The translations under genes and the position numbers were made by a program. This document shows, in pieces, positions 11,594 to 55,222 of a stretch of 64,000 bases of DNA (the stretch's first letter is position 1; each line of letters starts with the position of its first letter). The stretch comes from Alphaproteobacteria bacterium (GTDB taxonomy: Bacteria; Pseudomonadota; Alphaproteobacteria; Micropepsales; Micropepsaceae): positions 62,001 through 126,000 of the forward strand of contig JAGOBA010000004.1 of assembly GCA_017983635.1 (NCBI GenBank), written 5' to 3'. The notes beneath the pieces are model-generated. The model searched no databases. It saw only the letters and a program-made list of their open reading frames with translations, and was not told the origin of the DNA.

Positions 11594-11597
11594 GGCG

Positions 11598-12623: not shown

Positions 12624-12632
12624 ACAAAACGA

Positions 12633-12658: not shown

Positions 12659-12683
12659 CGCAGTCACATTCTATTGAACGTTG

Positions 12684-13668: not shown

Positions 13669-13684
13669 GCGAAGCTGGAGCGAA

Positions 13685-14374: not shown

Positions 14375-15764
14375 CTCGCTCGCCTTTCGGCTGACCGCGA
14401 TTGCCGCGGTGTGGAGCGTCTTGGGGCTCATCGCTGGCGGCTATGGCTTGTCGACGCTGTTTCGCAATTCCGCCGAGCGTAGCTTCGACACGCGGTTGCT
14501 TGCCGACCTTGAAAGTGTGATTGCGGTCGCCGAGCTCGATTGCGCCGGCACGGTGACGATGCCGCGGCCGCTGTTCGCTGAGCGGTTCATGAATCCGTTC
14601 TCAGGGTGGTATTGGCAGGTCGGTTCGGTCGAGAAGCTGGCGAACCAACGGCCGAAGCAGATGATGCGGTCGCGCTCGTTGTGGGATCAGTCGCTGGGCA
14701 TTCCGTCGATCAAGACATCGAGCGAACTTCGTTCGGGCTATGTGGTTGGGCCGAAGAAGCAAAACCTGCGCTACGTTGAACGGACGGTCTCGTTGCCGGC
14801 GCCGGAGGAGGTCGAAGGCGGTCAGACGTGCCGGGGCGAGGGGAGCTTCGACATCGTTGTCGCCGGGGATCTGAAGGATGTCGAGGCCGAAATCGACAGC
14901 TTCAACTCGACGCTTTTTTGGTCGGTGGCGGTGTTGGCGGCCGGATTGATCGGCGCGATGATCGTGCAGGTTCGGTTGGGCTTGGCGCCGCTGGATCAGG
15001 TTTCGCAGTCGCTGGCGGCGATCCGCGAGGGGCGTGCGGACAAGCTGGAGGGGCCGTTTCCGACCGAGATTCAGCCGCTGGCCGACGAGCTGAATGCGCT
15101 GGTCGCGCACAACGAAGAAGTCATCGCGCGGGCGCGAACGCATGTGAGCAACTTGGCGCACTTTCTGAAAACACCGCTCAGCGTGATCGCGAACGAGGTG
15201 CAGGGTGTGGCCACGCCGCTGGCCGAAACCGTGGCGCGGCAGGTGCAGACAATGCGTCGGCAGGTCGATCACTATCTGGCGCGCGCGCGGACGGTGGCGT
15301 CGGCGAAGGTCATCGGCGCGCGTACCGAGGCGGCGCCGGTGCTCGCGGATCTCACACGGGCGCTGTCGAAGATCTATGCCTCGCGCGGGATTCGGATCGA
15401 GCGGGAGTGTCCGGAGGGTCTCAGCTTTCGTGGCGATCGCTCGGACTTCGAAGAGATGATCGGCAATCTCATGGACAACGCCTGCAAGTTTGCCGAGGGC
15501 GAAGTGACGGTGAAGGTCTCGTCTGGGCGGCCTGGGCGCCTGCTGGTGGTGGTGGCCGACGACGGACCGGGGCTCACTGAAGAACAACAGAAGCGGGTGA
15601 TCGAGCGCGGCGAGCGTTTGGACGAGACCAAGCCCGGGTCTGGGCTCGGGCTTGGGATCGTCAAAGAGATTGCATCGCTCTATGGCGGGCAGATGAAATT
15701 GGGGCGGGCCGAAGCCGGCGGCTTGTCGGTCGAGTTGGACCTGCCGGCTGTTCAGACGGCCTAG
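14361..15764 (+). CDS. PhoQ/FeuQ-like sensor histidine kinase
   Basis: Membrane sensor kinase. With the ATG at 14361 it has 467 aa; an upstream in-frame start at 14319 is possible. Membrane segments at about 8-30 and 184-206 enclose a 150-residue periplasmic domain holding only two cysteines (61 and 157). A HAMP-like linker follows. The H-box is NLAHFLKTPLSVI (H267), the PhoQ-like version rather than the usual HELRTPL. N-box NLMDNACKFA, G1 DDGPGL and G2 GSGLGLGI are intact. Its stop codon overlaps that of the convergent XRE gene. Confidence 0.9.
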   Translation: MLPTNSLAFRLTAIAAVWSVLGLIAGGYGLSTLFRNSAERSFDTRLLADLESVIAVAELDCAGTVTMPRPLFAERFMNPFSGWYWQVGSVEKLANQRPKQMMRSRSLWDQSLGIPSIKTSSELRSGYVVGPKKQNLRYVERTVSLPAPEEVEGGQTCRGEGSFDIVVAGDLKDVEAEIDSFNSTLFWSVAVLAAGLIGAMIVQVRLGLAPLDQVSQSLAAIREGRADKLEGPFPTEIQPLADELNALVAHNEEVIARARTHVSNLAHFLKTPLSVIANEVQGVATPLAETVARQVQTMRRQVDHYLARARTVASAKVIGARTEAAPVLADLTRALSKIYASRGIRIERECPEGLSFRGDRSDFEEMIGNLMDNACKFAEGEVTVKVSSGRPGRLLVVVADDGPGLTEEQQKRVIERGERLDETKPGSGLGLGIVKEIASLYGGQMKLGRAEAGGLSVELDLPAVQTA

Positions 15765-33188: not shown

Positions 33189-36100
33189 TCAGAAGTAGTT
33201 CGTCACCGAACCCAGGATTGTACAGGCGTCCTTTGCGGGGAGCCGGCCGTCGACGATGGCAATGTGGACCATGTTTTTGTCCGAGCGGTTGGTCAGGAAG
33301 CGGTAGGTCATGCTGCCGAGTGGCGTGTTCGCGCGGCAGTCACGTTCGGTGAAATCCTCAAAGCGGTTCACGTTGCGGGCGAGGCGGTCTTCGGCTTCTT
33401 GCGACCAACTTGACGAGGCGTTGCCTTTGTCGTCGCGTTGGTCCTTGCGGAGCAGAATGCGAATGGCGCGGCGCAGGAAGTAGGCGCGACGTTTGTCTTC
33501 GCTCAACGTGGCGGGTGCGTAGAACGTCATGATCACGCCCCCGAGCTTCGGCGTGTCACTGCCGGCATTGATCACGAAGCCGCGCATTGGCCGGTCTTCG
33601 AACCAGGGGTGACCGGTCGTCTTGCCACTCCACGGTTGCCAAGCGGTCGGAATGCACCACGTGAGATCGAGGTCGCGCGACTTGTAGGCGCGCAGTTCCG
33701 AGCCTTCAATGGTGGCGACTTGCGACGTGCGCAATGTGCCGTTCAGGAAGAGTTCGGCGACATATCTGCCTGGCGTTAGACAGGCGCCGGTGTCGTCGAC
33801 AAACACGTCGGATTGCTTTGTCAGGCCGGTGTTGTCCGGTGCGGGAAAATCTTCCGGCTTCGCGAAGGTTTGGAACTGATCTGCCAGAGCGCGACGCAAT
33901 TCCCAGGCGTTTGGATCGACTGCGGCGCCAGGCGCGGGACTGTCGTCGCGGAACCAGGCAATGGTCAGGCGGTCGCGCTTAGGGTCGAGGCCGTCGAAGC
34001 GGGCCTGCCACGTCACGGCGTGAGGCGAGATCGAGGCGACGAAATCAGTCACGCCCACGTCGCGTGCGGCGAGGGCGTCGGCGGGGCGGCCGGCGGCGAT
34101 CGTCGGCCGTATACGCTCGATGGCGGCGTTGATGTCGCTGCAGACGCGGATCTCCTTATGCAGGTTGGTGCAGTAGCTCTTTAGAATCTCAATATCGGTC
34201 AGAGCGCTGGCCCGCAGTGCAGGGGATATTCCTTCGCCATTTCTTAGGGCCTTGGCATAGGTTGCCTCGGCCTGGTCAAGTTCGTCTTGATCGCCGCTCG
34301 CAAGCTGCAGAAGGCCTAGGTTCAGCCAATCGACGGCATCGGTCGAGGGTTCTTCGTCGCTCCAGAGTTCGGGACGAAAGGTTTGAATGTAAAGCCGCTG
34401 CCACCAGGTTGCATTTCCCGTGATTTGGCTGGCGGTCAAGTGAGCTTCGCTCAGGGCGTCGGGCTTTGCATCCGCGAGAGCCAGGACCGTTGAATCGAAG
34501 GCGAAATTCGCCAGCAGATTGCGCGGGCGCAACATACCGGCGTTGACGAAGGACCTGAGTTCGTTGAGCTGCGCCTCGCGTAGGGTGGAAAGCTTCGTGC
34601 GGCTGTTCAAGCTCGAATAGTCTTCATTACGTTGCGGGTTGTCCATGCGCGAGATCACGCGCTGATAGTTCTTGTAGGCGGGGATGAAGCCTGGGCGCGC
34701 TGCGATGGCGCACGCATAGGCTATGGCGGCGGCGTGGTCGGCGCGGCTGCGCGCGGAAGAGTCGGCTTCGCTGGTGCTGGCTAGGTTTTGCTCCGCAACT
34801 CCTTCGGCGTACTTGATGGCCGCGAACTCGACGATGTGATGCGGGTCGTCGAGCGTGTGATGGTGGTCGTCCTTCGCCTCTAGGCAACCCTCTGGAAGTG
34901 CGTCGGGACTTGCTGCGACCGGAGAGAGCCAAGCGTAGCCGCCGAAGGCAACGGAGGCGGTCAAAAGGACGACGCCCGATCCTATCAGCCAGCGACCGGC
35001 AGTGGTTTCGCCCATCGTGTAGGCTTGGCCAAACAGGTAGAGCGCGATCGCGAGGACCGTCAGCACGGCGAGCAAGCGGGCGGCTCGTTTTCCCCACCCG
35101 GCTGAGATTTCCGCGAACCCATCGGAGCGGGCGAACAGGGTCGCGGGGCCTCCCTTACGGTCGAGAATGTTGTCGCTCATGCGCTTTGCGGGCGATGATG
35201 CGCTGTCGGCAAGGTCATGGTCGTCGAGGGTCTCGACCATCTGAGGGTTGTTATCGGTGGTTTGCTTGAGCGAGTCGCAACGACGTTTTCGTTCGGCATC
35301 GAGTTGCGCCGGGCTAAAGTCGACCATGCCGTCGGCAGCAAGCGCATGGAGTTGCGTCGCCGTCGCGCAGCGAACCCGCTTCGACAAGAAATCGATCGAG
35401 CTGTCGAACGCGCCGCCCATGGTGACGGCGCCAAGCCGGGTGCGCCGGTTGACGAGTTCGGCGCGCTCCTTTTGCGCCTCAAGCGCGAATTCGCCGGTGT
35501 GTTTAAGCGAGACACTGTAGAGCCAGGCGAAGGCGGCGCTGACGAACACACTCACCGTGATGAGGAGTACGATGCGTCGTGACCAAGTGTCGTGCGTGGT
35601 GTGGCCGGTAAGGTGGGCGAACGATACGCGGCCGGGTTCGGGCGCTTCGGGGTGAGGCGCGTGGCCGGGGGCACGCTCCCTGAGGAAGAGACCATTTCGC
35701 GCTGCCAGAACGGCAGCAACAACGAGCAGCACGGTGAGCGGCAGCATTGCCCAGATCGATTGAGGATCGATGATCAACATCGCGACCGCGGCGCCGATTG
35801 CGATCAGCGTACCGCTGGCGGTGAGTATCCACCATAGGCGTGGCGGCCCCAAGTTCAGCTCGGCCAACGTTAGGCAGACGAGTCCGAGGACGAAGAGTAG
35901 TACGATGAATGCGAGTTGCGGGCCGACTTCATGTGCTGCGGCGATCGCCTTGTCGAGCTGTTCGAACTTCAGAGCCGGTTCGACGTTCCGCTCCTTTTCG
36001 ACGGTTGCGAGAATGCCTAGACGCCGTAGTTCGGCCGCCGAACCCGTCGCGACTTCCTGTTCGACCGACAGATCTTTGCTGACGAGATCGCGCATGTAGG

Positions 36101-36536
36101 TCGAAAAGCGCCGCGAAGCGTTGCGTTGTGCCATCAATTCGGCGGCGTGCCATTCGAGCCAGTTCGACGAGGGATCGTGGGCGCTGCGGAACGCTTTGTA
36201 CGCTTGGCGGAGGTCGACGGCTTCGTTCTTCAGCGTCCGTTCGACGTTCTTCATGCCGATGCCGACGAGAACTTCGGCCAATAATTGTTGGCGGTAGCTG
36301 ATGTCTTGCAGCTGACCGAGCGCCAGTCGCCGTTCGAGCGCCACCGATCGGTGCTCCGCCAGCGCGACACGGAACGCGGCGACGGCTCCGAAGATAGAGA
36401 TCGCCACCATGATGAAGGCTGCGATCACGTGCAGGTCGAGGCGGTCGTCGAGGAGCGGTGCTAGAACAGACCGCAGACGCGCCAGCCGGGGCACGCGCGG
36501 TCCGGTGCTCTCTTTGGCTGCGGCATCTGTGGTCAT
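33189..36536 (-). CDS. Very large membrane protein of unknown function (1115 aa)
   Basis: Start at the ATG at 36536. About seven membrane helices: one near 38, a cluster of three at 210-285, one near 325, two at 490-540. Between the first two lies an extracytoplasmic helical region, and the C-terminal 550 residues form a soluble domain with TPR-like helices (VDWLNLGLLQLASGDQDELD) and then beta-rich segments (KSRDLDLTWCIPTAWQPW). No catalytic motif recognised. It follows the sulfotransferase gene in the same direction after 136 bases containing a hairpin. Possibly an envelope assembly or sensory protein; not assignable. Confidence 0.72.
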   Translation of the reverse strand: MTTDAAAKESTGPRVPRLARLRSVLAPLLDDRLDLHVIAAFIMVAISIFGAVAAFRVALAEHRSVALERRLALGQLQDISYRQQLLAEVLVGIGMKNVERTLKNEAVDLRQAYKAFRSAHDPSSNWLEWHAAELMAQRNASRRFSTYMRDLVSKDLSVEQEVATGSAAELRRLGILATVEKERNVEPALKFEQLDKAIAAAHEVGPQLAFIVLLFVLGLVCLTLAELNLGPPRLWWILTASGTLIAIGAAVAMLIIDPQSIWAMLPLTVLLVVAAVLAARNGLFLRERAPGHAPHPEAPEPGRVSFAHLTGHTTHDTWSRRIVLLITVSVFVSAAFAWLYSVSLKHTGEFALEAQKERAELVNRRTRLGAVTMGGAFDSSIDFLSKRVRCATATQLHALAADGMVDFSPAQLDAERKRRCDSLKQTTDNNPQMVETLDDHDLADSASSPAKRMSDNILDRKGGPATLFARSDGFAEISAGWGKRAARLLAVLTVLAIALYLFGQAYTMGETTAGRWLIGSGVVLLTASVAFGGYAWLSPVAASPDALPEGCLEAKDDHHHTLDDPHHIVEFAAIKYAEGVAEQNLASTSEADSSARSRADHAAAIAYACAIAARPGFIPAYKNYQRVISRMDNPQRNEDYSSLNSRTKLSTLREAQLNELRSFVNAGMLRPRNLLANFAFDSTVLALADAKPDALSEAHLTASQITGNATWWQRLYIQTFRPELWSDEEPSTDAVDWLNLGLLQLASGDQDELDQAEATYAKALRNGEGISPALRASALTDIEILKSYCTNLHKEIRVCSDINAAIERIRPTIAAGRPADALAARDVGVTDFVASISPHAVTWQARFDGLDPKRDRLTIAWFRDDSPAPGAAVDPNAWELRRALADQFQTFAKPEDFPAPDNTGLTKQSDVFVDDTGACLTPGRYVAELFLNGTLRTSQVATIEGSELRAYKSRDLDLTWCIPTAWQPWSGKTTGHPWFEDRPMRGFVINAGSDTPKLGGVIMTFYAPATLSEDKRRAYFLRRAIRILLRKDQRDDKGNASSSWSQEAEDRLARNVNRFEDFTERDCRANTPLGSMTYRFLTNRSDKNMVHIAIVDGRLPAKDACTILGSVTNYF

Positions 36537-36638
36537 CGGCAAGGCACTTCGCGCGTATGAGGGCTGAGAGCCTACAGCCTATTGTGAACGTAGCGGAGCC
36601 GGGTAGGTGCCAAAAGGATGAGGATAATGTCCCCGAAA

Positions 36639-36672: not shown

Positions 36673-38577
36673 CTATTCGGCCGGAGCTGGGCCGGCGAGG
36701 CGCTTCGTGGGTGGTTTGCGGCGCGCCGCCGGCTTGCGGCCCAGGCGGGTGATCTTGCGTAGCGCGGCGCTGGCGAGGCCGGACCAGGTGTTGAGACGGC
36801 GTTCCAAGTGCTGGACGTGCATTCGCTCGAAGCGCAGGTCTTCTTCGACGCGGCGGCCGCGCGGGTCTTCGGCTAGGCGGGCCACCTTTTGGTCGGCACG
36901 CGCGTCGGTGACCGCGACCGGCTCAGACGTCGCAACGTGCGGGACGGCGGGAAGCGGTTGGTGCTTACCCGCTTTTGCCCACGCCTGCGCCAGTTCGGCG
37001 CGCAGCTCGCTCGTCTCGTTGAGGAAGTTGCGCTCGTCGGACTCGAGTTCGGCGATGCGATCTTCGGCGGCGGCGAGCGCTTGCTGGTGATGGCGCGCTT
37101 CGGCTGCGGCCCTTACCGCCTTCGTCTCGGCGATGTGGATTTGATCTTTGGCCGCCGCAAGTTCCTTTTGAAGCGCGACAGCGTTTTGCAGCGCGGCCCT
37201 GAGTTCGGCAGCCATGCCGAGAGACTTGGCGCGGATCTCTTCCGCTTCGGCGTGGGCTTTGTCGCTCTTCTTCTGCTGCGCCTTCATGTGGCCTTCGAGC
37301 GTTTCCGTGCGGTCGCTCAGGCGTTTCGCCAGCGCTTGGAGTTCCTTTGCGTCGTTGACCGCCTTCTTCAGCATCTCCTCCGTTTTTGCGAAAGCGGCGA
37401 TGCGGCGTTCGGCTTCTTCGGCGCGTGCTTGCAGCAAGCTTGCGGTGTTGGCGGTTTCCGAGGCCTCACCTTTGGTATGGGCGAGCGCGGTTTCCAGTTC
37501 CTGGCCGATACGCTCAAACTCACCGGCGCGGGCTTGCGCGGCGTTGAGGTCTACCTCAAGCGTGCGGACGCGCGCGGCCATGGTGTTGTTCGACTCGCGC
37601 GCCTTGGCGAGTTCCGCGCGAAGTGCATCGGCCGCGTCGGCGCGAATGTTGGCTTCGGTGACGTCTTTCGCCGCTTGTTTGACGGCCTCGGTTTGCGCGA
37701 ATGCAACGACGCCGAAGACGCGTGAACTTTCGGCAAAGGCGGCGCGGACCTTGTCGAGTTCGCGCTTGGGCTCTGCGCTCTTTGGTTCATCGCAGAGCTG
37801 GGTCAGGGCGCGGTAGGCGGTCTTGACCCAGCCCGGCACTTCCGTGTGGGCTTCAAGCTCCGCCATCGTGGCGCGGTGATTGTGCAGTTCGATATCGAGG
37901 AATTCGCGCACGTCGCTGGCCGCGTCGTTCGGCTGGCGCGGCCATTGGATGCCGAGGCGGCCGCCGGTTTGCACCGCGAGCAGCTTCCAGTCCTCCAGCA
38001 GCGCGTCGAGGGTCACGACGTTGCGCGGTAGGTGGCGGGTCTCATGCTCGGCATCAAGATAGTGACGCAGCCAGAGTAGCATTGCCTTTTCGAAAGAGAT
38101 GCCGTCGCGTTCGCGGAGCGACTCCGCAACTTCAAGCGGGTTGCGCACCATGATCAGCGGCGCTGAGCGAATGCCGGATTTCTCGAGCACCGACATCCAG
38201 TAGGGCAAGGTCCGGCAGATGCGCGGGTCTTTGAGGACCAGCAACGGCGCGGTGCTGTACTCCTCATCGATGGCGGCGCGGATGCGGCCAGCATAGCTTG
38301 TGGCGATGTCGCCGTCTTTCCAGCGTGAGCCCGGCGCGCGCCAGTCGTCCCACGAGGAATCCAGTTCGGCGAGAAGTTGTTCGTGCAGGCCCACGAGGAC
38401 GGAGGATTCCCAGTGGCCCCTCGGGTTCGATTGGTTGGCAGGGATCAAGTGACGCGGCATGGCCGCGCCCAGGAAGTTCACGATGCGCGCGATTGGCGAC
38501 GTGCCGCTGCGATGCATACCGAGCACGAGCACGGCAGTGCGGTAAGCTGGCATCGATCTATCCGGCTTTTTGGCCAT
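36673..38577 (-). CDS. Sulfotransferase fused to a long coiled coil
   Basis: 634 aa. Residues 1-265 are a PAPS-dependent sulfotransferase-like domain: 5'-phosphosulfate loop LGMHRSGTSPI near 19 and the 3'-phosphate region LVLKDPRICRT with MVRNPLEVAESL near 143. Residues 275-560 are an uninterrupted Ala/Glu/Lys/Gln-rich coiled coil, followed by a basic, Arg/Lys-rich end (KPAARRKPPTKRLAGPAPAE). Such domains occur in polysaccharide or surface-glycan loci; the coiled coil may tether it to a complex. No glycosyltransferases are nearby, so the acceptor is unknown. Confidence 0.8.
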   Translation of the reverse strand: MAKKPDRSMPAYRTAVLVLGMHRSGTSPIARIVNFLGAAMPRHLIPANQSNPRGHWESSVLVGLHEQLLAELDSSWDDWRAPGSRWKDGDIATSYAGRIRAAIDEEYSTAPLLVLKDPRICRTLPYWMSVLEKSGIRSAPLIMVRNPLEVAESLRERDGISFEKAMLLWLRHYLDAEHETRHLPRNVVTLDALLEDWKLLAVQTGGRLGIQWPRQPNDAASDVREFLDIELHNHRATMAELEAHTEVPGWVKTAYRALTQLCDEPKSAEPKRELDKVRAAFAESSRVFGVVAFAQTEAVKQAAKDVTEANIRADAADALRAELAKARESNNTMAARVRTLEVDLNAAQARAGEFERIGQELETALAHTKGEASETANTASLLQARAEEAERRIAAFAKTEEMLKKAVNDAKELQALAKRLSDRTETLEGHMKAQQKKSDKAHAEAEEIRAKSLGMAAELRAALQNAVALQKELAAAKDQIHIAETKAVRAAAEARHHQQALAAAEDRIAELESDERNFLNETSELRAELAQAWAKAGKHQPLPAVPHVATSEPVAVTDARADQKVARLAEDPRGRRVEEDLRFERMHVQHLERRLNTWSGLASAALRKITRLGRKPAARRKPPTKRLAGPAPAE

Positions 38578-38850: not shown

Positions 38851-39471
38851 ATGCGCGGGGAATTCAAACTTCGGCCCATGAAAGCGGAACACAAAGTCGC
38901 GATGGCGACGGCGGCAGTGCTGAGCACGCTCGGTGCCGGGTCGTTACTGGCTCTGCCGAACAAGCCGAAATCCGAAGTTGCGCAAGCGGTTGCGGTCTCG
39001 GAAGAGATCATCGTCCCGGTGAGCGGGGTGAGCGTGGACAAGCTTTCTGACACTTGGGGTTCGCCGCGGTCGGGCGGGCGGGCGCACCAGGGGATCGACA
39101 TCTTCGCGGCGCAAGGTACGCCGGTGCGGGCGACGGCGGCGGGCAAGATTGCGAAGCTCTACCTCAGCAAGCGCGGCGGGATCACGATCTATCAGACGAG
39201 TGAGGACGGTGCGTTCGTTTTCTACTACGCGCATCTGAACGGCTATGCGTCGAATCTGAAGGTGGGGTTGCCGGTCGCCCAAGGGCAGGTCATCGGCTAT
39301 GTCGGGCAGACCGGCAACGCGCCAGTGCCGCACTTGCACTTCGAAATCCAAACTGCGAGCGCCGGGCGTCAGTGGTGGAAGGGCGTTGCGATGAACCCCT
39401 ATCCGCCGCTCAAGGCGGGCAAGGTTGAGGTGACTGCGGCGCCGGTTTCACTGGCTGGGTCCGTTCCCTAA
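38851..39471 (+). CDS. M23 peptidase (LytM-type)
   Basis: 206 aa with a hydrophobic N-terminus (VAMATAAVLSTLGAGSLLAL) acting as anchor or signal, and a LytM domain: first ligands in HQGIDIF (H79, D83), then YYAHLNG and HLHFE. All zinc ligands are present, so an active endopeptidase cutting peptidoglycan cross-bridges, or an amidase activator. An alternative ATG at 38878 would remove nine residues. It overlaps the convergent membrane-protein gene by 24 bases. Confidence 0.85.
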   Translation: MRGEFKLRPMKAEHKVAMATAAVLSTLGAGSLLALPNKPKSEVAQAVAVSEEIIVPVSGVSVDKLSDTWGSPRSGGRAHQGIDIFAAQGTPVRATAAGKIAKLYLSKRGGITIYQTSEDGAFVFYYAHLNGYASNLKVGLPVAQGQVIGYVGQTGNAPVPHLHFEIQTASAGRQWWKGVAMNPYPPLKAGKVEVTAAPVSLAGSVP

Positions 39472-40275
39472 GTTCGCCTCGGCGCATTTGGCTTCGATCA
39501 CGACAGGTTCGACCAGCAGCGTGCGGCCGACAAACGGCACGAAGCGCGGGACGCGCAAATACCAGCCATAGGTGCGGAAGTCGCATTTGCCGACGGTTGG
39601 AACCTGCGCGAACATCAAGTCGGGCGCCCAGTTCCAATAGACCCAGCTGTCGGTGATGTTGAATGCCATGTTTTCGCGGATGCCCTGGGCGTCGGTGTAG
39701 TCGCCGAAGACGAGATAGCGATCATGTGTGATGATCTGCTTGAACGTGATGTGCACCTTGTGAAAATCGCGCGTCGTGCCGAGCACGTAGAAGATCTTGA
39801 AGAACGGCCAGATGACGAGGAAGACTGCGGTCGCGATCAGCGCGCGGCCGGCGAGCGTGAGCGTGCGCTCCCCTTTCGCGTCGGTCTTGAGGGAGATGGC
39901 GCGGACCGCCGGCCAGACGTAGTTCTCGATCAGGCGCACGACGAACATGAATGCGCCGGCGGCGCGCGCGGAAGTTCGCGGTAGGCGCTTCGTGAAGAAC
40001 GCGCCGACTGCGGCCAATGGGGCGGCGAGGGACTGGCCGACGGCGCGCAACTTGCGCCAGAGGCGGCCGTGCCAGCCGAGCTTGCGCTCTGCTTCCGCGT
40101 GTTGCTGGCGCTGTTCCTCCTGCCGCCGGCGTTCCTGTTCGTCCAGTGCGCGGCGGGCGGCGCGGGCGGCGGCTTCGGCGCGATCCGTGGGGTCGTCCGA
40201 GTGATCTTGTAGCGAGTCGCCGGGTCTCAGGATTTCCCGCTTGCCGTCGCCGCCGGATTTGTCTGCGCCGCTCAT
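39448..40275 (-). CDS. Membrane protein, third gene of the Clp-like ATPase operon
   Basis: 275 aa. A cytoplasmic charged segment (RAARRALDEQERRRQEEQR) comes first. Two hydrophobic helices follow near 107-125 and 145-165. The last 110 residues are probably periplasmic, with YLVFGDYTD, FNITDSWVYWNWAPDLMF and FRTYGWYLRVPRFVPF. This end has a loose resemblance to DUF1523-type domains, which I cannot confirm. Its ATG overlaps the ATPase stop by four bases, so it is translated with it. Likely membrane anchor or target of the complex. Confidence 0.65.
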   Translation of the reverse strand: MSGADKSGGDGKREILRPGDSLQDHSDDPTDRAEAAARAARRALDEQERRRQEEQRQQHAEAERKLGWHGRLWRKLRAVGQSLAAPLAAVGAFFTKRLPRTSARAAGAFMFVVRLIENYVWPAVRAISLKTDAKGERTLTLAGRALIATAVFLVIWPFFKIFYVLGTTRDFHKVHITFKQIITHDRYLVFGDYTDAQGIRENMAFNITDSWVYWNWAPDLMFAQVPTVGKCDFRTYGWYLRVPRFVPFVGRTLLVEPVVIEAKCAEANLGNGPSQ

Positions 40276-42542
40276 CGATCGGTGTTCAGGTCGAGCGACT
40301 CGAGCTTCATTTTCTTTACGGTCGCGGTGCCGGCGGAGAACAATCCTGCCGCGTTCGGCTTGTAGGAGGCAGCGAACTCGTCGCTTGTTTTGTCGAAGGT
40401 GACGACAATTTTCCCGCCGCGTGCGCCGGCTTTGCCGTTAGCTTGGACGCGCTTCAGCTCTTCCTCGAGGACGATTTCGCTGACCAGCTTCTTGATGAAC
40501 TTGGCGAACAGGTTGTTCACGGGGCGGGCGCCGTAGCGCGGGTTCAAAATCCGCTCGACGGCGCTACGCAGGCAACTGTCGGCGATCTCAACAGTGACGT
40601 CTTTGCCGTCAAGCATCTTGTTGACGCCGGCGAGGTTCTTCTTGCCGATCTTGAACAGCAGATCGGCGTCGAGACGTTTGAAGAACTGAATGTCGGTGAA
40701 GCGGCCCAAGAGCTCGGGTTTGAAAAACGCCTTCACGTCCGTGTGCGCCTTCACCACCGCCTCGTCGTAGCTTAGAGCTTCGTCGACGAAGTGGCGCGAG
40801 CCGACGTTCGATGTCGCGACGATGGTGCATTGGCTGAAGTCGATCAGGCGGCCCTTGCCGTCGGTGAGGCGGCCGGCGCTCAAGATCTGCAGCAGAATGT
40901 TGAAGACGTCGGGGTGGGCCTTCTCGATCTCGTCGAAGAGGACGATCGAGTTCGGTTTCTTGCGCACTTCGTTGGCGAGCACGCCGCCTTCTTCATAACC
41001 GGCGTAGCCGGGCGGGGCGCCCATGATCTTCGAGACCGTATGCTTTTCGCCGTATTCAGACATGTCGAGGCGGATCGGCTCCGCATCCGCTTTGCCTTCG
41101 GTGTAGGCGGCAAGCGCGCGGGCGAGTTCCGTTTTGCCGACGCCGGAGGGACCGATGAAGAAGTAGGCGCCGGCCGGCGAGTTCGGGTCCTTCAAGCCCG
41201 CGGCGGCGTTCTTTACCGCGGCGGCGATGGAAGCGATCGCGCGGTCTTGGCCGTAGATGCGCTCCTTCAACGACTCTTCGAGCTTGATGACGCGTTCGAG
41301 TTCGCTTTCGCCCAGCGTTGCGACCGGAATGCCGGTGCGCTTTGAGAACGTGCGGCGGATGTGCTCGGGCGTGAGTTTGTTGTCCTTGGGAACACCGACG
41401 TTGAGCTCGGCGAGCTTCTTGTTGATGCCGGCGAGCGCGGCGCGGTATTTGTCGGCGAGTTCGTCGTTTTGCCGCGCGATCTCGCTCGGGCGGCCTTCGC
41501 GCTTGGCAGCTTCAGTTTCGGCGTCGAGCTTTTGCAGTTCGGCGGTGTAGTTGCGCTTCTGGTCGAGGAGCGCCTTCACGCCGTCGGTCTTTTTCAGCCA
41601 GTCCTTCGAGAGATCGCGCTCTTGGCCTTCGAGTTTCGCGATCTCGGCTCGGAGCTTGTCGCGGCCGTCGCTGTTATCGGAGCGTTCGAGGGCGGCGAGT
41701 TGATTACGCAGGTTGACGAGTTGATCCTCGATGCGGTCGAGGTCGGCGGGCTTGCTCATCAGGTCCGCCCGGAATTCGGACGCCGCCAAGTCAAGTAGGC
41801 GCAAGGGCACGCGCGGGAGGCTCTGATCATCGAAAGAGCCGCGGAACTTGGTCGTGAGTTGCGCCACCGTCTGCAGGGCTTCGTCCGTGATCATCATGCC
41901 GTGCATGGCTTCGTAGACCTTGCGCACGCCGCGCAGGATCGCGAGCATTTGGTCGGTGTCGGGTTCCTTCAGGTCGATGGCTGTGAAGAACTCGCGGAAG
42001 CCGGAATGTTGGTCGACGACCTTTGCCTTGTGGCTGTCGCTGAGCGCGATGATGCATTGCGTGCGGCGGTGTTGGAGCGCGGACATCAGGCTGTTCAGTA
42101 CGCCATGTGCCGACTTCGCCTGCAGGCCGTTCACGAAGTTCGAGAAGTTGTCGACGACGAGGACGCTGTACTGCGCGTCTTCGAGGTGATCGATAATGCG
42201 TTGGAAGTTGCGGCCGATTTCGACGGGGTCGTCGCTGGCCAGCAGGCTTTCGGTGTCGAGACGGAACAGACGACGCTTGATGATATCTTGCGAGATGTCG
42301 GCGCGGCGGCGGCGTTCCTCGATGCCGTTGATAAGCGCCGTTTTGCCGACGCCGGTCGGACCGGTGAGCATGACGTTTCGGCTGTCCCGCAGGGTCAGCA
42401 CTTCGCAGATCTGCCGGATCTCCGTGTCGCGGCCGATCAGCGTGAAGTCTTCGTCGAGATCCTGGTCGAGCTCGATCAGGTGCGGGAGTACCCCGCCCTT
42501 GTCGCGGTCGCCCGGTTTGGCGGTTGTCGCTTGAACGTTCAT
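40272..42542 (-). CDS. ClpB/ClpV-like double AAA+ ATPase with degenerate first ring
   Basis: 756 aa, without the ClpN repeat domain. D1 has Walker A GPTGVGKT (61-68), but its Walker B reads VLVVDN (127-132), lacking the catalytic Glu, and the pore-loop tyrosine region is replaced by SDDPVEIG. A 120-residue coiled coil (262-382) sits where ClpB has its middle domain. D2 is intact: GPSGVGKT (464-471), pore loop GYAGYE (512-517), Walker B VLFDE (534-538), sensor 1 TIVATSNVGS, PELLGR and sensor 2 GAR. It should power unfolding or remodelling. No ClpP-binding loop seen. It is tightly coupled to the genes on both sides. Confidence 0.85.
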   Translation of the reverse strand: MNVQATTAKPGDRDKGGVLPHLIELDQDLDEDFTLIGRDTEIRQICEVLTLRDSRNVMLTGPTGVGKTALINGIEERRRRADISQDIIKRRLFRLDTESLLASDDPVEIGRNFQRIIDHLEDAQYSVLVVDNFSNFVNGLQAKSAHGVLNSLMSALQHRRTQCIIALSDSHKAKVVDQHSGFREFFTAIDLKEPDTDQMLAILRGVRKVYEAMHGMMITDEALQTVAQLTTKFRGSFDDQSLPRVPLRLLDLAASEFRADLMSKPADLDRIEDQLVNLRNQLAALERSDNSDGRDKLRAEIAKLEGQERDLSKDWLKKTDGVKALLDQKRNYTAELQKLDAETEAAKREGRPSEIARQNDELADKYRAALAGINKKLAELNVGVPKDNKLTPEHIRRTFSKRTGIPVATLGESELERVIKLEESLKERIYGQDRAIASIAAAVKNAAAGLKDPNSPAGAYFFIGPSGVGKTELARALAAYTEGKADAEPIRLDMSEYGEKHTVSKIMGAPPGYAGYEEGGVLANEVRKKPNSIVLFDEIEKAHPDVFNILLQILSAGRLTDGKGRLIDFSQCTIVATSNVGSRHFVDEALSYDEAVVKAHTDVKAFFKPELLGRFTDIQFFKRLDADLLFKIGKKNLAGVNKMLDGKDVTVEIADSCLRSAVERILNPRYGARPVNNLFAKFIKKLVSEIVLEEELKRVQANGKAGARGGKIVVTFDKTSDEFAASYKPNAAGLFSAGTATVKKMKLESLDLNTDR

Positions 42543-42543
42543 G

Positions 42544-44316
42544 TCAGTTGTCGAACAGTGCGTCGATGCCCTTCTTCGGCGTTGCGGCGGCGCGGTCTTT
42601 CGTTGCCGCTGCCGGCGCCGGCGCGTCTTTCTGGGCGTCGAGTTCGGCGCGAGTGCTCTTCAGGGTGATCTTGTTCAGCTCTTCCGCGGAGCGCTGCACC
42701 TCGTCGGCCAGCGTCTTGGTCTGTTTCAGCACGTCGATCAGCGTCGTCGTGGTTTCGCTGACCGCGTCGCTCAAATCCTCGATGTCCGTGATCTGGCCTT
42801 CGAGCGCACCCCGGCGCTTCTTTAGGAGTTCCGGCGTCGCGCGGATTTCGTCGGTCAGGACCATGCTGGCCTCTTGGCTCATATGGTCGAGCGCGTCTTC
42901 AATCAGGCTCGCTTTCTCCGTCAGCACCGTGTTGACGATGGCGTTGAGCAGCGTGACTACGCGGGTGGAGGTGGTCGCGATGGTTTGCGAGCGGATGCTC
43001 ATGCCGTAGTTGATCGCGGACGAGTTCTTGCGTTCAAGGTCGGTGATTACGGCGCCTTGTTGGGCCATTTCGCCGACCGAGCGTGTGAGACTGATGTCCA
43101 GGTCGCCGAGACGCGCCAGGAACCGGTTCATATTCTGAATGCGATTGCGGGCCTTTGTACGTTCAATCTCGGCAGTAAGGTCTTCGGTTGAACCCTCGGC
43201 CGGCTTTGCGGTCGCAGCATCGGGGTCGCCGAACTGGGCGATGAGGCCGCCGACGGTTTCCTTGTTCTGCTTCGTTGCGATTTCGAGCGCCTTGTTCAGG
43301 ACAGCGAGCAGCACGCTGATCTTGTTGTTCTGGTAGTTCAGCTGCAGGATGTTCTCGCGGACCTTCGTAAAGCCTTCGATCGAGCTGCCGATGCGCCGCT
43401 CTGCTTCCTTGATGAAAGAGACGCCGCTTTCGGCGGCCGACTTCATGTTCTTGCCGAAAAGCTCGCCGCCAATATCGAGAACCTTCAGGATCTCGGGGCT
43501 CTGCTTTTCCATGTCCAAGATGTTCTTGTCGATCGGCGTCGTCGTTCCGGGCATGAACAACGGCGCGGCTTTCAAGTCCGCGATCTTGGCATCCTGAGCG
43601 GCGATCGTTTGGCTTAGTGCGGCGACCTTATCCTTTGTCTCCTTGATCAAGCCGGCGCGGAAGAGCCGGCCAAAGAACGTGTCGTTCCGGCGCAACGTAT
43701 TCTCCAGTATCGCCCTGTCGGACTGTGCGGTCGTGGCGGCGCGGGAGATTTGCGCGATGTCTTGTTCGCGTGCACGGCGGGCTTCCTTCAGCATCTTCTG
43801 CTGCTGGAAAGCGTCGTTGATCTGTTCGATCAGAGACTTTTTCGCGGTCGCCTCGCCCGAGCGGAATCGTTTCAGGAGGCCCAGGACCTCGTCGAGCGGC
43901 GCGAGCGAGTTCTTGAAGCTGTTCAGCCCTTCGAACACGCTGTCCATATTCTGCTTGAACGTCGCATAGGCTTGGTCGCTGACGGTTTGGATTTGACCGA
44001 GCGCCATGTTGCGGCGTTGCATTTGGACGTATTCGAAGAACTCGCCCAGGATTTCGATCTTCTTGTCGTTGTCGGGTTCGGCGGGATCGAACTCAAGCAG
44101 CTTGGCGATCTCGCGAATCTTTTGCTCTTGCGAAAGCTCACGGCTTTCGAAGACCTTGAAGATCGGGTTCTGTTGCTCGACGCGGGCGATCAATTGCTGT
44201 TCGTCTTCGCCGCCTTGAGCTACTTGCGTCTCGGTGGTGTCGCCATAGCGGCGGGCGCGGCGGGCGGCCTTGCGTTCCTCGAGCGACAGGGAAGCTTCGG
44301 TGGCGGGAGTCGACAT
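42544..44316 (-). CDS. Large coiled-coil protein, first gene of the Clp-like ATPase operon
   Basis: 590 aa, soluble, nearly all helical, starting with a basic segment (LEERKAARRARRYGDTTE). Several coiled coils span 85-560; conserved-looking patches are NILQLNYQNNKISVLLAVLN near 325 and SSAINYGMSIRSQTIATTS near 435. The latter and the following helices recall the TelA (toxic anion resistance) family only faintly. The end KKGIDALFDN is a short linear motif. One base separates it from the ATPase ATG. Adapter or filament-forming substrate of the ATPase is my best guess. Confidence 0.68.
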   Translation of the reverse strand: MSTPATEASLSLEERKAARRARRYGDTTETQVAQGGEDEQQLIARVEQQNPIFKVFESRELSQEQKIREIAKLLEFDPAEPDNDKKIEILGEFFEYVQMQRRNMALGQIQTVSDQAYATFKQNMDSVFEGLNSFKNSLAPLDEVLGLLKRFRSGEATAKKSLIEQINDAFQQQKMLKEARRAREQDIAQISRAATTAQSDRAILENTLRRNDTFFGRLFRAGLIKETKDKVAALSQTIAAQDAKIADLKAAPLFMPGTTTPIDKNILDMEKQSPEILKVLDIGGELFGKNMKSAAESGVSFIKEAERRIGSSIEGFTKVRENILQLNYQNNKISVLLAVLNKALEIATKQNKETVGGLIAQFGDPDAATAKPAEGSTEDLTAEIERTKARNRIQNMNRFLARLGDLDISLTRSVGEMAQQGAVITDLERKNSSAINYGMSIRSQTIATTSTRVVTLLNAIVNTVLTEKASLIEDALDHMSQEASMVLTDEIRATPELLKKRRGALEGQITDIEDLSDAVSETTTTLIDVLKQTKTLADEVQRSAEELNKITLKSTRAELDAQKDAPAPAAATKDRAAATPKKGIDALFDN

Positions 44317-44484
44317 TGCTTGGACCTTCTAGGTCGAACGCGCGGGAGCGCATATAGGTACGGCAAGACCATTTTGCAGCCGGGGATAAGGTCTAGCCAG
44401 AAGAATTTCTTTCCTTGCGGGTCTTGTATTGCCGCTCGATTGGGTATGGCGGGAGCGGTGTCGGCTGGTTAAGACTTGGCGGCG

Positions 44485-45228
44485 ATGTGCGGGCGGTATG
44501 TTCTTCGTGTGATCTTGAAGAACCTCAGGCGGGATTTCGAGCTGGGGTTCGATGTGCATGAGACCGACCTGCCGATGGAGGCGCGACCTCGCTACAACAT
44601 TGCGCCGACTCAGATGGTCTCCGTCATCCGGATGGTGGATGGGGTGCGGCGGCATTCGCTGGTGCGGTGGGGGCTGATCCCGCATTGGTCGAAGGAGGTG
44701 CGCAAGCCGCAGATCAATGCGCGCGGCGAAACCGTTTTCGAGAAGCCGATGTTTCGCGACGCGGCGCGGCGTCGGCGGTGTTTGATTTTGGCCGATGGCT
44801 TCTATGAGTGGAAGCGCGACCAGAACGACAAGCCGCTGCAGGCTTATTTCATCGAACGCGTGGATGGGAAGCCGTTCGCGATGGCCGGTATTTGGGACAC
44901 GTGGATCAGCCCTGATGGCGAGGTGATCGACAGTGTTGCGATCGTGACGACCGAGGCGAATGCGGAGATCGCGCCGATCCATGATCGGATGCCAGTGATC
45001 TTGGCGCAGAAGGACTACTTGACCTGGATCGAAGCGGAACGGGCGACGGTCGACGAGGCAAAGGCGCTGATCAAGCCGGCACCCGACGGGACGTTCGCGC
45101 CGAAGGCGGTCACGAACCGGGCGAATGCGGTGCGCAATGACGACCCGGCGAATCTAGAGCCTGCCGATCCGAACGCGCCGCCGCCTCCGCCGAAGCGCAG
45201 CGATCCGCGGCAGGGTGATTTGTTCTAG
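44485..45228 (+). CDS. SRAP (HMCES/YedK) abasic-site crosslinking protein
   Basis: 247 aa. The ATG at 44485 places the catalytic cysteine at position 2 (MCGRYV), essential for the thiazolidine link to abasic sites in single-stranded DNA; an upstream TTG would bury it. RYNIAPTQ, RWGLIPHW, INARGE, ADGFYEWKR (Glu) and IHDRMPVIL (His) complete the active site. It protects abasic sites during replication. The stop overlaps the convergent cytochrome stop (CTAG). No LexA-type box seen upstream. Confidence 0.93.
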   Translation: MCGRYVLRVILKNLRRDFELGFDVHETDLPMEARPRYNIAPTQMVSVIRMVDGVRRHSLVRWGLIPHWSKEVRKPQINARGETVFEKPMFRDAARRRRCLILADGFYEWKRDQNDKPLQAYFIERVDGKPFAMAGIWDTWISPDGEVIDSVAIVTTEANAEIAPIHDRMPVILAQKDYLTWIEAERATVDEAKALIKPAPDGTFAPKAVTNRANAVRNDDPANLEPADPNAPPPPPKRSDPRQGDLF

Positions 45229-51455: not shown

Positions 51456-51749
51456 ATGATGATGGTTCCCTTCGTGCTTGCCGTGACGCTCCTCTCCGTC
51501 ATGGGCTACACGATGCTTTTCGGTACAAGTGTGACTGAGCGTTTTTCCGGCTTTGCCGTGTTGATGGTGGCGGCGGTCGTGACCGGCGCTTACGTGAGTG
51601 CGAACTTCAACGGCGGGAAGCCATACGGTTACGAAGTGTCGATCGGTGTGGAGCCGTGGCGGCACGAAGATATCGCCGTGCAACCGGCTGGCGCGCCGGC
51701 GAAGCCACAGCAGAGGCCGACGGAAGATCCGGGCACGCCGATGGTCTAG
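51456..51749 (+). CDS. Small membrane protein (97 aa)
   Basis: Starts at the first of three ATGs at 51456. Two membrane helices (PFVLAVTLLSVMGYTMLF and FAVLMVAAVVTGAYV), then a Pro/Ala-rich outer or inner tail. Stop TAG overlaps the LigD stop (CTAG, 51746-51749). No family recognised. Confidence 0.55.
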   Translation: MMMVPFVLAVTLLSVMGYTMLFGTSVTERFSGFAVLMVAAVVTGAYVSANFNGGKPYGYEVSIGVEPWRHEDIAVQPAGAPAKPQQRPTEDPGTPMV

Positions 51750-54352
51750 CTACGTAGGCGTTTGGCGGCGGTCGCGAATGGCCGCCCGGCGCCAACGTAG
51801 TCGACCCAGGGCTTCGACTTCTTCAACAACGCCGGCGCGGTTTCAAGTGTGAACCGCGCCGGATCGAGTCCCGTTTTCACTTGCGACCAAGAAAGCGGCA
51901 TCGAGACCGGTGCGTGCGGCCGTGCGCGCGGTGAGAGTACGGCGACGGCCGTTGAGATGTGGTCGTTCCGCAAATAGTCGAGGAAGATGCGGCCGCCGCG
52001 ATCTTTCTTGGCCATGGTGGTCAGATATTTCGCCGGTGCGTCGGCGGTCATCTCGCGGCAGACCTCGTGGGCGAACGATTTTGCTTCGTCCCAAAACACC
52101 GCAGCCTTTGACGGTGCGAATGGCGTGACCACGTGCAGGCCCTTGCCGCCCGTGGTCTTGCAGAAGCCAATCAGGCCGACGTGCTCCAAGCGCTGGTTCA
52201 GTTCGACGGCCGCTTCAATGACGCGTGCGAAGGGGACGTCAGGTGCTGGATCCAGATCGAAGACGAGGCGGCCGGGTGTTTCCGGATCGCCGGGTTGGCA
52301 GTTCGTTGGATGGAACTCGATGGCTGCGATTTGCGCGGCGGCGATAATGGCCTCGAGACTGTCGAACTGCGTGTAGGGCTTGCGGTCGCCGCGCACCTTC
52401 ACCAGCGATATCGCTTTCGACATGCCGGCCATTTCGTGGCGTTGAAAGAATTGCTGGCCGCCGATGCCGTCGGGCGCGCGGATGATGGAGCAGGGGCGGC
52501 CCTTGATGTGTTCGAGCATCCACGGGCCGATTTCCTCGTAGTAGCGGGCGAGGTCGAGCTTCGTGATGCCGGGTTCGGGCCAGAGAACCTTGTCGGCGTT
52601 GCTGATTGGGACGCCGAGAACGCGTGGGGCCTTGCCTTCGGCGGATGAGACGATCACGGCGGGCAACGGCTTTGCCTCCGCCGTAGGGCGGACGTGTTCG
52701 ACGACAACTTCGTTCGCGGGTTTGTCCTCGCGTAGGCCCTTGTATGAGCCCTGGAGGACCATGCCATCGCCGCTCCAGCCGGCGAATTCGATCTCGGCGA
52801 CGAGCTTTGGTTCGGCCCAATGAATTTCGTTGGCCTTCTTAAGGACGTCTGAAGCCGCGAACGGGTTCGTGTTGCTGGCGATCTTTGTTAGGCGATCGTG
52901 CAGGTCGCGCGCGGTTTTGCCGTCGAAGCCGGTGCCGACGCGGCCGAGATAGATGAGGCGGCCGGCCTTGTAGGCGCCGACGAGAAGCGAGCGGAAGCGT
53001 GAGCCTTCCTGGGCCCAGCCACCGAGGACGACTTCCTGGCCGCCGCGGAGTTTCGCCTTTAACCAGGTGTCGCTACGGGCCGAGCGATACGGCGCGTCGA
53101 GGCGCTTAGAGACAATGCCTTCGAGCTTCATTTTTCGCGCGGCTTCGAGGACGGCTTTGCCGTCGTCTTGGATGTGGTCGACGTAGCGGATGCGTGGGGC
53201 GGCTTTCGCGACGAGGGCTTTCAGACGCTCCTTACGGGCGGCGAGGGAGAGGTCGCGCAGGTCCTCCATGCCTTCTGCCAAGAGATCGAATGCGAAGTAG
53301 ACGAGCGTGTCCGTCTTCCCGTCGGCGATGGCGGCTTGAAGGCGCGGGAAGCTCGGGTGGCTTTCAGGGTCCAGCGCACAGACTTCGCCGTCGATGATGC
53401 AGTCTGGCAGTTTGCCGGCGGCGCGTGCGGTTGCCTTGAACTTCTCCGTCCAGTCGAGGCCTTTGCGCGTGCGAAGGCGTGCTTTGCCGTCCTCGACACG
53501 CAGCTGCAGGCGGTAGCCGTCGAGCTTGATCTCATGTCCCCAGTTGCCGTTGCGCGGTGGCGCGTCGACGGCTTTGCAGAGTTGTGGCGGGATAAAGTCG
53601 GGCAGGCGGGCGATCGCTTTGCCATGCGCGGGTGTTGCGTGTTTTGGCTGGGGCGGCGGTGCCTTCTCGGCGCTGTGTTCGCGATTGGCGCGGTCGGAGT
53701 TCCAGACGGCGTCCGCTGCAGTGTCGGTAGTCAGCATGAACGGTTTTGGCGCGCGGCCTTTGCCGGCGGCGATCTGATCGAGCGTTCGGGACGACGCGAC
53801 GGATTTGTCCTGATCAAGGATTGCTTCGCCGTTGGCGGTCACCGCGTGGTCGTCGCGGTGTTTGATGAGAAGCCAGTTGTCGTGCTTGTCGTTGTCGCGG
53901 CGTTTTAGGCGTACGAGTACCCACGAGCCGTGCAGCTTCTTGCCGTCTAGGCGGAACTTGAAGTCGCCCTTGGCGATCGCCTGTTGCGGGGTGAGGTCGC
54001 CCTCAACCTCCCAATGGCCACGATCCCACAGCATCACGGTGCCGCCGCCGTACTGGCCCTTGGGGATCGTGCCTTCGAAGTCGCCGTAGTCGAGCGGGTG
54101 GTCCTCAACCTCGACGGCCAGGCGCTTGTCGGCGGGGTCCAGCGAGGGGCCGCGGGTTACCGCCCATGACTTGAACACGCCGTCGAGTTCAAGACGGAAG
54201 TCGTAGTGCAGCCGGGTCGCCGCATGCTTCTGGATGACGAAGCGCGAACGCTTCGACGGCGCGATGTTCGCGTCGCCGGAAGGCTCCGCGGTTTTCGAGA
54301 AGTCGCGCTTAGCTTGGTAGCGCGAGAGCTTTTTCTTGGTGTCAGCGCGCAT
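51746..54352 (-). CDS. ligD: LigD, multifunctional non-homologous end-joining DNA ligase
   Basis: 868 aa with domains in order: 3'-phosphoesterase (FVIQKHAATRLHYDFRLELD near 38), ATP-dependent ligase (adenylated Lys in HEIKLDGYRL near 285; EGIVSKRLDAPYRS near 412), and primase-polymerase (C-terminal; KTTGGKGLHVV and LVFDLDP with catalytic Asps). PE-LIG-POL is the usual alphaproteobacterial order. It repairs double-strand breaks with Ku, whose gene precedes it by 15 bases in the same operon. All three active sites look intact. Confidence 0.96.
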   Translation of the reverse strand: MRADTKKKLSRYQAKRDFSKTAEPSGDANIAPSKRSRFVIQKHAATRLHYDFRLELDGVFKSWAVTRGPSLDPADKRLAVEVEDHPLDYGDFEGTIPKGQYGGGTVMLWDRGHWEVEGDLTPQQAIAKGDFKFRLDGKKLHGSWVLVRLKRRDNDKHDNWLLIKHRDDHAVTANGEAILDQDKSVASSRTLDQIAAGKGRAPKPFMLTTDTAADAVWNSDRANREHSAEKAPPPQPKHATPAHGKAIARLPDFIPPQLCKAVDAPPRNGNWGHEIKLDGYRLQLRVEDGKARLRTRKGLDWTEKFKATARAAGKLPDCIIDGEVCALDPESHPSFPRLQAAIADGKTDTLVYFAFDLLAEGMEDLRDLSLAARKERLKALVAKAAPRIRYVDHIQDDGKAVLEAARKMKLEGIVSKRLDAPYRSARSDTWLKAKLRGGQEVVLGGWAQEGSRFRSLLVGAYKAGRLIYLGRVGTGFDGKTARDLHDRLTKIASNTNPFAASDVLKKANEIHWAEPKLVAEIEFAGWSGDGMVLQGSYKGLREDKPANEVVVEHVRPTAEAKPLPAVIVSSAEGKAPRVLGVPISNADKVLWPEPGITKLDLARYYEEIGPWMLEHIKGRPCSIIRAPDGIGGQQFFQRHEMAGMSKAISLVKVRGDRKPYTQFDSLEAIIAAAQIAAIEFHPTNCQPGDPETPGRLVFDLDPAPDVPFARVIEAAVELNQRLEHVGLIGFCKTTGGKGLHVVTPFAPSKAAVFWDEAKSFAHEVCREMTADAPAKYLTTMAKKDRGGRIFLDYLRNDHISTAVAVLSPRARPHAPVSMPLSWSQVKTGLDPARFTLETAPALLKKSKPWVDYVGAGRPFATAAKRLRS

Positions 54353-54367
54353 GGCGACGCGCGGGGC

Positions 54368-55222
54368 TCACCGCTTTGCGCGCTTCTTGGGCGCGGGAGT
54401 TGGCTTGGAGGGCTTGTCCGCCTTCTCTGCCTTCTTCGGTTTGGCAGCATCACCCTTCAGGCTCGCTTTAAGCGCGTCCATCAGGTTGATGACGTTCGAC
54501 TCTGCGGGCTCGTCGGTGCGGGTGACTTTGTGCCCCTTCTGCTTGCGTTCGATCAGCTCGCGGAGCGCTTCTTCATAGTGGTCCTTGAACTCGGACGGAT
54601 CGAAGTCGGCTTCCTTTTGACTGATGATCTTGGCCGCGATCGCGATCATTTCCGGGTCTGGGCGGATTGCGGGGATGTCGGCGAAGTAGTCCTTCATCGC
54701 GCGGACTTCTTCGTGGCTTCGCAGTGTTGTCGCGACGACGCCGCGGTCCCGGGGTTCGAGCGCGACCAGGCGTTCGCGTGAGGACATGACCACGCGGCCG
54801 AGCGCGATTTGGCCAGCGCGCTCCATCGCCTCGCGAATGACGGCGAACGGTTCGGCGGCCATCTTGCCGTCGGGTACGAGATAGTAGGGGTTGTCCCAGT
54901 AGAGGCGGTCGATGTCCGCGGCGGGGACGAAGCTTTCGATCTCGATCGTCTTGGTGCTCTCGAGTTTGACGCTATCGATTTCTTCCTGGGTGACGATGAC
55001 GTATTCGCCTTTGGCAATCTCGTAGCCTTTGACGAGGCCCTTGCGTTCGACGGGCTCTTCGGTGCCGGCGTCGACGGTGATCATCCGGATGCGGTTGCCC
55101 GTCGCCGGATTGATCATGTTGAAATGCACATCGCCGCGCGGGCTGATAGCATTGTACAGCGCGACCGGACAGGTCACGAGCGAAAGCTTCAGATGTCCCT
55201 GCCAGGACGGACGAGCGGCCAT
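54368..55222 (-). CDS. ku: Ku, non-homologous end-joining protein
   Basis: 284 aa. Ku core with WQGHLKLSLVTCPVALYNAI at 7-26, VKGYEIAKGEYVIVTQEE near 64 and IDRLYWDNPYYLVPDG near 107. The C-terminus is a long Lys/Pro/Ala-rich tail (KPKKAEKADKPSKPTPAPKK), the flexible DNA-binding extension common in bacterial Ku proteins. It binds broken ends and recruits LigD, encoded next. Confidence 0.95.
   Translation of the reverse strand: MAARPSWQGHLKLSLVTCPVALYNAISPRGDVHFNMINPATGNRIRMITVDAGTEEPVERKGLVKGYEIAKGEYVIVTQEEIDSVKLESTKTIEIESFVPAADIDRLYWDNPYYLVPDGKMAAEPFAVIREAMERAGQIALGRVVMSSRERLVALEPRDRGVVATTLRSHEEVRAMKDYFADIPAIRPDPEMIAIAAKIISQKEADFDPSEFKDHYEEALRELIERKQKGHKVTRTDEPAESNVINLMDALKASLKGDAAKPKKAEKADKPSKPTPAPKKRAKR

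Follow-up and report, generated by a model that had tools for sequence, protein, structure and literature searches.

A coiled-coil protein, a Clp-type ATPase and a membrane protein encoded as a conserved triad in alphaproteobacteria and giant bacteriophages

We examined three adjacent genes in a 64,000-nucleotide stretch of an Alphaproteobacteria bacterium of the family Micropepsaceae (GCA_017983635.1, contig JAGOBA010000004.1, positions 62,001 to 126,000; hereafter the window), which encode a coiled-coil protein (CC), a Clp/Hsp100-type AAA+ ATPase and a membrane protein. We found that this triad is a real conserved unit, co-inherited in scattered alphaproteobacteria and giant bacteriophages: the three genes stood in order at 19 of the 19 loci uncut by a contig end, bacteria and phages combined, at identities of ~20–33%. 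The unit is apparently undescribed; no description of it was found in the literature searched, most subscription papers lying outside the reach of that search. Reading from the sequences, we propose that the triad may act as one machine, a membrane-tethered remodeller driven by the second ATPase ring (D2) with CC as its dedicated partner, a tentative reading to which we give somewhat less than even confidence.

A gene triad shared by bacteria and giant phages

The initial annotation had described three leftward genes, the first encoding a coiled-coil protein, with a one-base gap between CC and ATPase (42543) and a four-base overlap between ATPase and membrane protein (40272–40275). The coordinates of the open reading frames (ORFs) reproduced this layout exactly, and the first product was modelled as helical (Table 1). 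Of 11 genomes searched in the window's genus (set A), several of them incomplete, five carried the triad, one for each of five species, with CC identities of 78–86%. Across the window's order the count was 5 of 96 genomes, with few carriers elsewhere. The flanking genes are rearranged in one species (L015), where the triad is intact, and the window neighbourhood otherwise holds its place in the sister species. A class-wide search then recovered a divergent CC (22% identity) in Dongia, where the ATPase is the next gene and a membrane protein, again overlapping by four bases, comes after it, and a scan of genome contigs gave CC, ATPase and membrane protein in that order in Aestuariivirga, Taklimakanibacter and other Rhizobiales. 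Between these divergent relatives (set B, Dongia included) and set A, the CC proteins are 20–23% identical (BLAST E ~1e-18 to 1e-23), the ATPases ~33% identical, and the membrane proteins related at an hhalign probability of 85% (E 5.8e-6). The genes flanking the set B triads differ from genus to genus, and those flanking the phage triads differ too.

A gene-neighbourhood survey, which the initial annotation had suggested, found the triad conserved in many genomes and no ATPase standing alone. No solitary ATPase was seen in 386 genomes of the class (ATPase profile, E 1e-165), where only two genomes matched, both with CC; since scoring covered only the two top candidates in each genome, solitary copies are bounded rather than excluded. 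CC is itself rare: relatives were absent outside the window's own genome from a thin sample of 348 genomes of the phylum, and from plasmids; a CC profile match in another genome (G130) proved to be a GntR regulator matched by chance. In one Hyphomicrobiales metagenome-assembled genome of set B (L024, 1677–3826) the ATPase is split over two overlapping frames, probably by a sequencing or assembly frameshift.

The triad is also carried by viruses, a feature that the initial annotation did not contain. Complete triads were found on IMG/VR contigs of 88–247 kb, and the search was extended to nine contigs of up to 518 kb, eight with the complete triad and the ninth (L054) cut by its contig end. The isolated Agrobacterium jumbo phage Atu_ph07 (490 kb) encodes all three proteins: its CC (gp493) is 42% identical to that of L045, and the identities of its ATPase (gp492) and membrane protein (gp488) are 48.5% and 46.6%. 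A large-terminase match was obtained in 4 of the 8 viral contigs tested, by a family that also matches many bacterial controls, and for the other contigs the viral label is that of IMG/VR. Genes for an endolysin, an RNA ligase and phage-type nicotinamide adenine dinucleotide (NAD) salvage adjoin the triad in L042, L050 and L051. That the triad stays intact on bacterial chromosomes as well as on viral contigs of 88–518 kb would point to a useful membrane function in either setting.

Several other features of the viral contigs were recorded. In the 518-kb contig L051, genes for nicotinamide phosphoribosyltransferase, a cytidyltransferase/Nudix protein and nicotinamide mononucleotide adenylyltransferase, the NAD salvage set, flank the triad (4193–14667). 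The terminase match in the record of L042 (G816:C1:142714-144345) contains an in-frame TGA and an in-frame TAA, for which an intron, a frameshift or recoding may account, and that in the record of L053 (G823:C1:163577-164913) falls in neighbouring pieces, as from an intron or a fragmented gene. Beside the L053 triad lie four overlapping large ORFs (455–7462, minus strand; 734, 475, 581 and 546 aa) with no PHROG match.

We then considered whether some bacteria could have captured the triad from jumbo phages, in which it would be a chaperone for host takeover or virion assembly of the sort proposed for phage BCS1 or ClpA. The CC tree is compatible with such a history for set B, whose bacterial sequences group as a single clade (100/99) amid phage sequences of greater diversity, and PMC7824862 proposes that jumbo phages use AAA+ chaperones in assembly. 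Set A, with the window, instead forms a separate long branch in a tree whose base is unresolved, a scan of viral contigs with the window CC alone returned no close viral relative, and no phage assembly genes lie near the bacterial copies. Moreover, none of the Atu_ph07 triad genes falls within that phage's three main clusters of virion genes (PMC6102473), and a role inside the infected cell is therefore favoured. We consider a captured phage chaperone distinctly unlikely.

Table 1. Features of the triad and its immediate neighbours (window coordinates)
Feature	Position	Strand	Basis
Gene 1, CC protein, 590 aa	42544-44316	minus	ORF call
CC conserved C-terminal peptide, KGIDALFDN	42547-42573	minus	tail comparison
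Gene 2, Clp/Hsp100-type AAA+ ATPase, 756 aa, double ring, without N-domain	40272-42542	minus	ORF, Pfam, ClpB model
D1 ring, degenerate, ~aa 33-264	41751-42446	minus	motif survey
D2 ring, intact, ~aa 414-700	40443-41303	minus	motif survey
Gene 3, membrane protein, 275 aa, predicted N-in and C-out	39448-40275	minus	ORF, hydropathy
Main membrane helix, aa 146-164, LIATAVFLVIWPFFKIFYV	39784-39840	minus	Kyte-Doolittle 2.11
Predicted periplasmic beta domain, aa 165-275	39451-39783	minus	alignment, AlphaFold2 strands
SRAP peptidase, divergent, upstream of triad	44476-45228	plus	
M23 peptidase, convergent, downstream of triad, 3' end overlapping gene 3	38851-39471	plus	

Anatomy of the three proteins

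The ATPase belongs to the Clp/Hsp100 AAA+ proteins by its Pfam matches (AAA_2, 2.5e-54; ClpB_D2-small, 1.3e-9) and by the Walker A and B, sensor and arginine-finger residues of its D2 ring. It had been described as ClpB-like without a ClpN domain, and this held: the TIGR03346 ClpB model is matched from position 175 only, and in the alignment with the ClpB that its own genome encodes (35% identity) the protein has no residues where that ClpB carries its N-domain. In a tree with eight ClpB, ClpA and other Clp proteins, 15 family ATPases formed one clade (Shimodaira–Hasegawa-like approximate likelihood ratio test, 100) outside ClpB, ClpA and ClpC.

We compared the D1 and D2 motifs of 19 family members with those of the genome's own ClpB, and this revealed a dead first ring that the initial annotation had not reported. 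In the window protein, D1 has VLVVDN in place of an hhhhDE Walker B and retains neither a KYRGEFEE pore loop nor an arginine finger, whereas the Walker A lysine is still there. All 19 members lack the pore loop, the arginine finger and, at the position expected for it, the Walker B glutamate; the 14 members from set B and phages have also lost the Walker A lysine and show C, R, I, V or A instead. D2 of the window protein retains GPSGVGKT, LFDEIEKAHP, a GYAGYEEGG pore loop, the sensor 1 N, the arginine finger and the sensor 2 GAR; both Walker motifs, both sensors and the arginine finger are kept in 19 of 19 members, and as the aromatic of the pore loop 18 members have Tyr and Atu_ph07 has Phe. 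Because the catalytic motifs are lost in D1 and kept in D2, ATP hydrolysis is expected from D2 but not from D1. An IGL/IGF-type ClpP-binding tripeptide was not found in the aligned D2 loop of any member, and therefore, on established knowledge of Clp proteins, the output of the ATPase is likely remodelling rather than proteolysis.

These features bear on the simplest alternative, a ClpB-type disaggregase or general quality-control chaperone with two incidental neighbours. The Clp/Hsp100 homology and the identity to ClpB are clear, and the phage member is labelled ClpB, with help against infection stress suggested by Attai 2018 (PMC6102473). Yet the family is a separate clade with no N-domain and a dead D1, the window's genome encodes a true ClpB elsewhere (and a ClpA), and the partners are never missing at uncut loci, so that we consider this alternative, already disfavoured, very unlikely. 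Three specific assignments were also rejected. As a ClpB equivalog the protein scores 492.6 against a cut-off of 1232.1 bits, lacks the N-domain and the D1 Walker B glutamate, and falls outside the ClpB clade. As ClpV/TssH it scores 397.1 against 884.95 bits, again without an N-domain and with no type VI secretion genes among the scanned neighbours. A ClpP-partnered unfoldase (ClpA, ClpC or ClpE) was set aside on the missing tripeptide.

CC is almost entirely helical, its AlphaFold2 model is all-helical, and homologues were found in set A, set B and phages; no Pfam, NCBIfam, PHROG or PADLOC family matched, nor any PDB relative by sequence. At its C-terminus is a conserved peptide, likewise new relative to the initial annotation. 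In set A a variable Ala/Pro/Lys linker is followed by KGIDALFDN, and in set B and phages a variable linker is followed by a PF-x-(L/F/I)-like peptide. This pattern was present in 13 of 13 non-redundant set B and phage tails (shuffled mean 0.6, maximum 4 in 2000); it was defined after the tails had been inspected, and the shuffle test thus supports conservation rather than the exact form of the pattern. Docking peptides are typically of this kind, a conserved short terminus carried by a flexible linker, and the CC tail may be one.

The initial annotation had placed the triad in a possible Ter/TelA-like stress context, and we asked whether CC could be a TelA relative in a stress-resistance system of that type. 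TelA is likewise a helical protein of jumbo phages, and CC has a weak match to the TelA protein of phage KP13-7 (E 0.05). Against seven TelA proteins, however, the CC profile gave hhalign probabilities of 0.2–0.7%, its score of 16.9 lay inside a column-shuffled null with a maximum of 22.6, and no TelA match was found in the window's genome. Kinship of CC with TelA (PF05816) was rejected at the sequence-profile level, the Ter/TelA context was not supported, and we regard such a system as highly improbable.

The membrane protein had been annotated with two helices and a periplasmic end. The membrane helix and the predicted periplasmic end stood, and the second helix did not: one helix is strong and the candidates for a second are weak. 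A strong helix occurs at the corresponding place in nearly all members, and the charged N-terminal region points to an N-in topology. The alignment of the ~110-residue periplasmic domain shows invariant C231, Y236, G237, R251 and C264. AlphaFold2 models a beta domain whose best PDB matches are OB (oligonucleotide/oligosaccharide-binding) folds, none significant, and the sole strong structural match of the protein is an uncharacterised Atu_ph07 protein (E 1.4e-5). The protein has no PADLOC match and no convincing Pfam, NCBIfam or PHROG family.

A possible remodelling machine and its main rival

We read the triad as one machine because it is fixed at all 19 uncut loci with varying flanks, with no partnerless ATPase in the 386 genomes, and because the dead D1 and intact D2 in 19 of 19 members come with a conserved CC tail, a membrane helix and invariant cysteines. 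In such a machine the membrane protein would hold the complex at the inner membrane and might sense the periplasm through its disulphide-linkable domain. CC would be the dedicated partner, either a self-assembling substrate or an adapter, presenting its C-terminal peptide to an ATPase that lacks the usual N-domain. With D1 as a passive scaffold, the D2 ring would pull CC, or a client bound to it, and this pulling could disassemble or re-set a membrane-associated assembly without proteolysis. In jumbo phages the triad would be an accessory module working in the infected cell rather than a part of the virion. The adapter, motor and membrane anchor of the initial annotation fit this anatomy, with CC allowed as either adapter or substrate, and an envelope-linked structure would be a possible target.

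Several observations weigh against this proposal. The ATPase and membrane protein genes are separated by other genes in Atu_ph07 and L042. The CC model is of low confidence (mean predicted local distance difference test score 68.8), and the CC fold search gave unspecific PDB matches, all generic helical ones. Docking of the CC tail on the ATPase is itself putative, and the membrane protein could be the binder of the tail instead.

The main rival is an anti-phage defence or superinfection-exclusion module, found in bacteria and resident jumbo phages, that stops another phage at the membrane. A patchy distribution in bacteria, a self-contained unit and carriage by jumbo phages would all be in keeping with this. 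Ter/TelA membrane-linked systems are proposed as jumbo-phage tools against superinfection in the accessible part of Iyer 2021 (PMC7824862), which does not mention the triad itself. On the other side, the triad has no toxin or nuclease part, and the window neighbourhood is one of housekeeping genes whose position is stable among sister species. Membership of a known PADLOC anti-phage system was rejected, the window CC and membrane protein having no convincing match and the ATPase matching generic AAA entries only (DolB, PDC-M37B). We consider defence unlikely, though the strongest contender to the remodeller.

A bolder form of the remodelling idea, drawn by analogy, is a bacterial and phage counterpart of ESCRT-III (endosomal sorting complex required for transport III) and Vps4. 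Here CC would polymerise on the inner membrane, the membrane protein would nucleate or sense, and the D1-dead ATPase would extract subunits by the C-terminal peptide and so remodel the membrane, by which jumbo phages might reshape or protect the membrane of the infected cell. This version we hold to be rather unlikely.

Genomic neighbourhood and comparison with known systems

Among ~30 window proteins scanned, we found no phage, type VI secretion, ClpP or DnaK genes, in agreement with the initial annotation, which had reported no type VI, ClpP or DnaK partners nearby. The remaining scanned genes are ordinary chromosomal ones (cytochromes c, Ku, LigD, acyl-CoA dehydrogenases and a penicillin-binding protein), with Ku and a multi-domain LigD forming a non-homologous end-joining pair (51746–55222, minus strand). 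The region upstream of the triad held no convincing regulatory motif, and the SRAP genes of sister genomes without the triad are distant copies (30–43% identity). Downstream, on the minus strand, a 634-aa protein (36673–38577) that begins with a weakly sulfotransferase-like stretch and has a long coiled coil as its tail is found near the triad in the four sister genomes (61–65% identity); elsewhere it is no part of the triad. A 1117-aa protein (33189–36542, minus strand) contains several hydrophobic segments, and neither Pfam nor NCBIfam nor PADLOC gave it a convincing match.

The closest known counterparts of the triad are in Atu_ph07, where gp492 ('ClpB'), gp493 and gp488 are direct homologues of all three proteins. 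There gp493 and gp488 are annotated as hypothetical, and the accessible part of PMC6102473 handles gp492 as an ordinary ClpB and mentions no triad. The triad offers a testable home for CC and membrane protein families without a convincing Pfam, NCBIfam, PHROGs or PADLOC match, and for a Clp-type ATPase subfamily labelled ClpB in a phage record, and for phage biology it is a definite accessory module to look at, both in Atu_ph07 and in giant phages not yet cultured.

With ClpB/Hsp104 the ATPase shares the double AAA ring, intact D2 Walker motifs, the GYxGYEEGG pore loop and a coiled-coil insert after D1; it differs in its missing N-domain, its D1 dead in 19 of 19 members, its own clade and its fixed partners. 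With ClpV/TssH it shares the Clp-type ATPase and, presumably, devotion to a single cognate partner that carries a short peptide. ClpV, however, grips the N-terminal helix of TssC through its N-domain (PMC5048182), a domain absent from the triad ATPase, which also lies far under the TssH cut-off with no type VI secretion genes found. TelA (PF05816) resembles CC in being helical and present in jumbo phages, but has no detectable profile similarity to it. In DUF1523 (PF07509), as in the membrane protein, a membrane helix precedes a domain that bears a YGW-type motif; the resemblance is suggestive to the eye but falls short of significance (hhalign 2–4% over 9–19 columns around YGW, two DUF1523 sequences).

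Two eukaryotic systems offer analogies. In Vps4/ESCRT-III, the helical partner has a flexible tail whose short C-terminal motif could, as that of CC might, recruit an AAA+ ATPase, and this likeness is one of analogy only. Vps4 is a single-ring AAA protein of a different clade. Pex1/Pex6 has an inactive D1 and an active D2 and is tethered by the tail-anchored membrane protein Pex15 (PMC10518020). The dead-D1, live-D2 double ring and the membrane-protein tether of Pex1/Pex6 with Pex15/Pex26 would thus have parallels in the triad; Pex1/Pex6 is a eukaryotic heterohexamer with partners not known to be homologous, and the resemblance is one of layout only. If the remodeller proposal is true, a Clp machine with a dead D1, a live D2 and a membrane partner would provide a simple bacterial model for Pex1/6-like remodelling.

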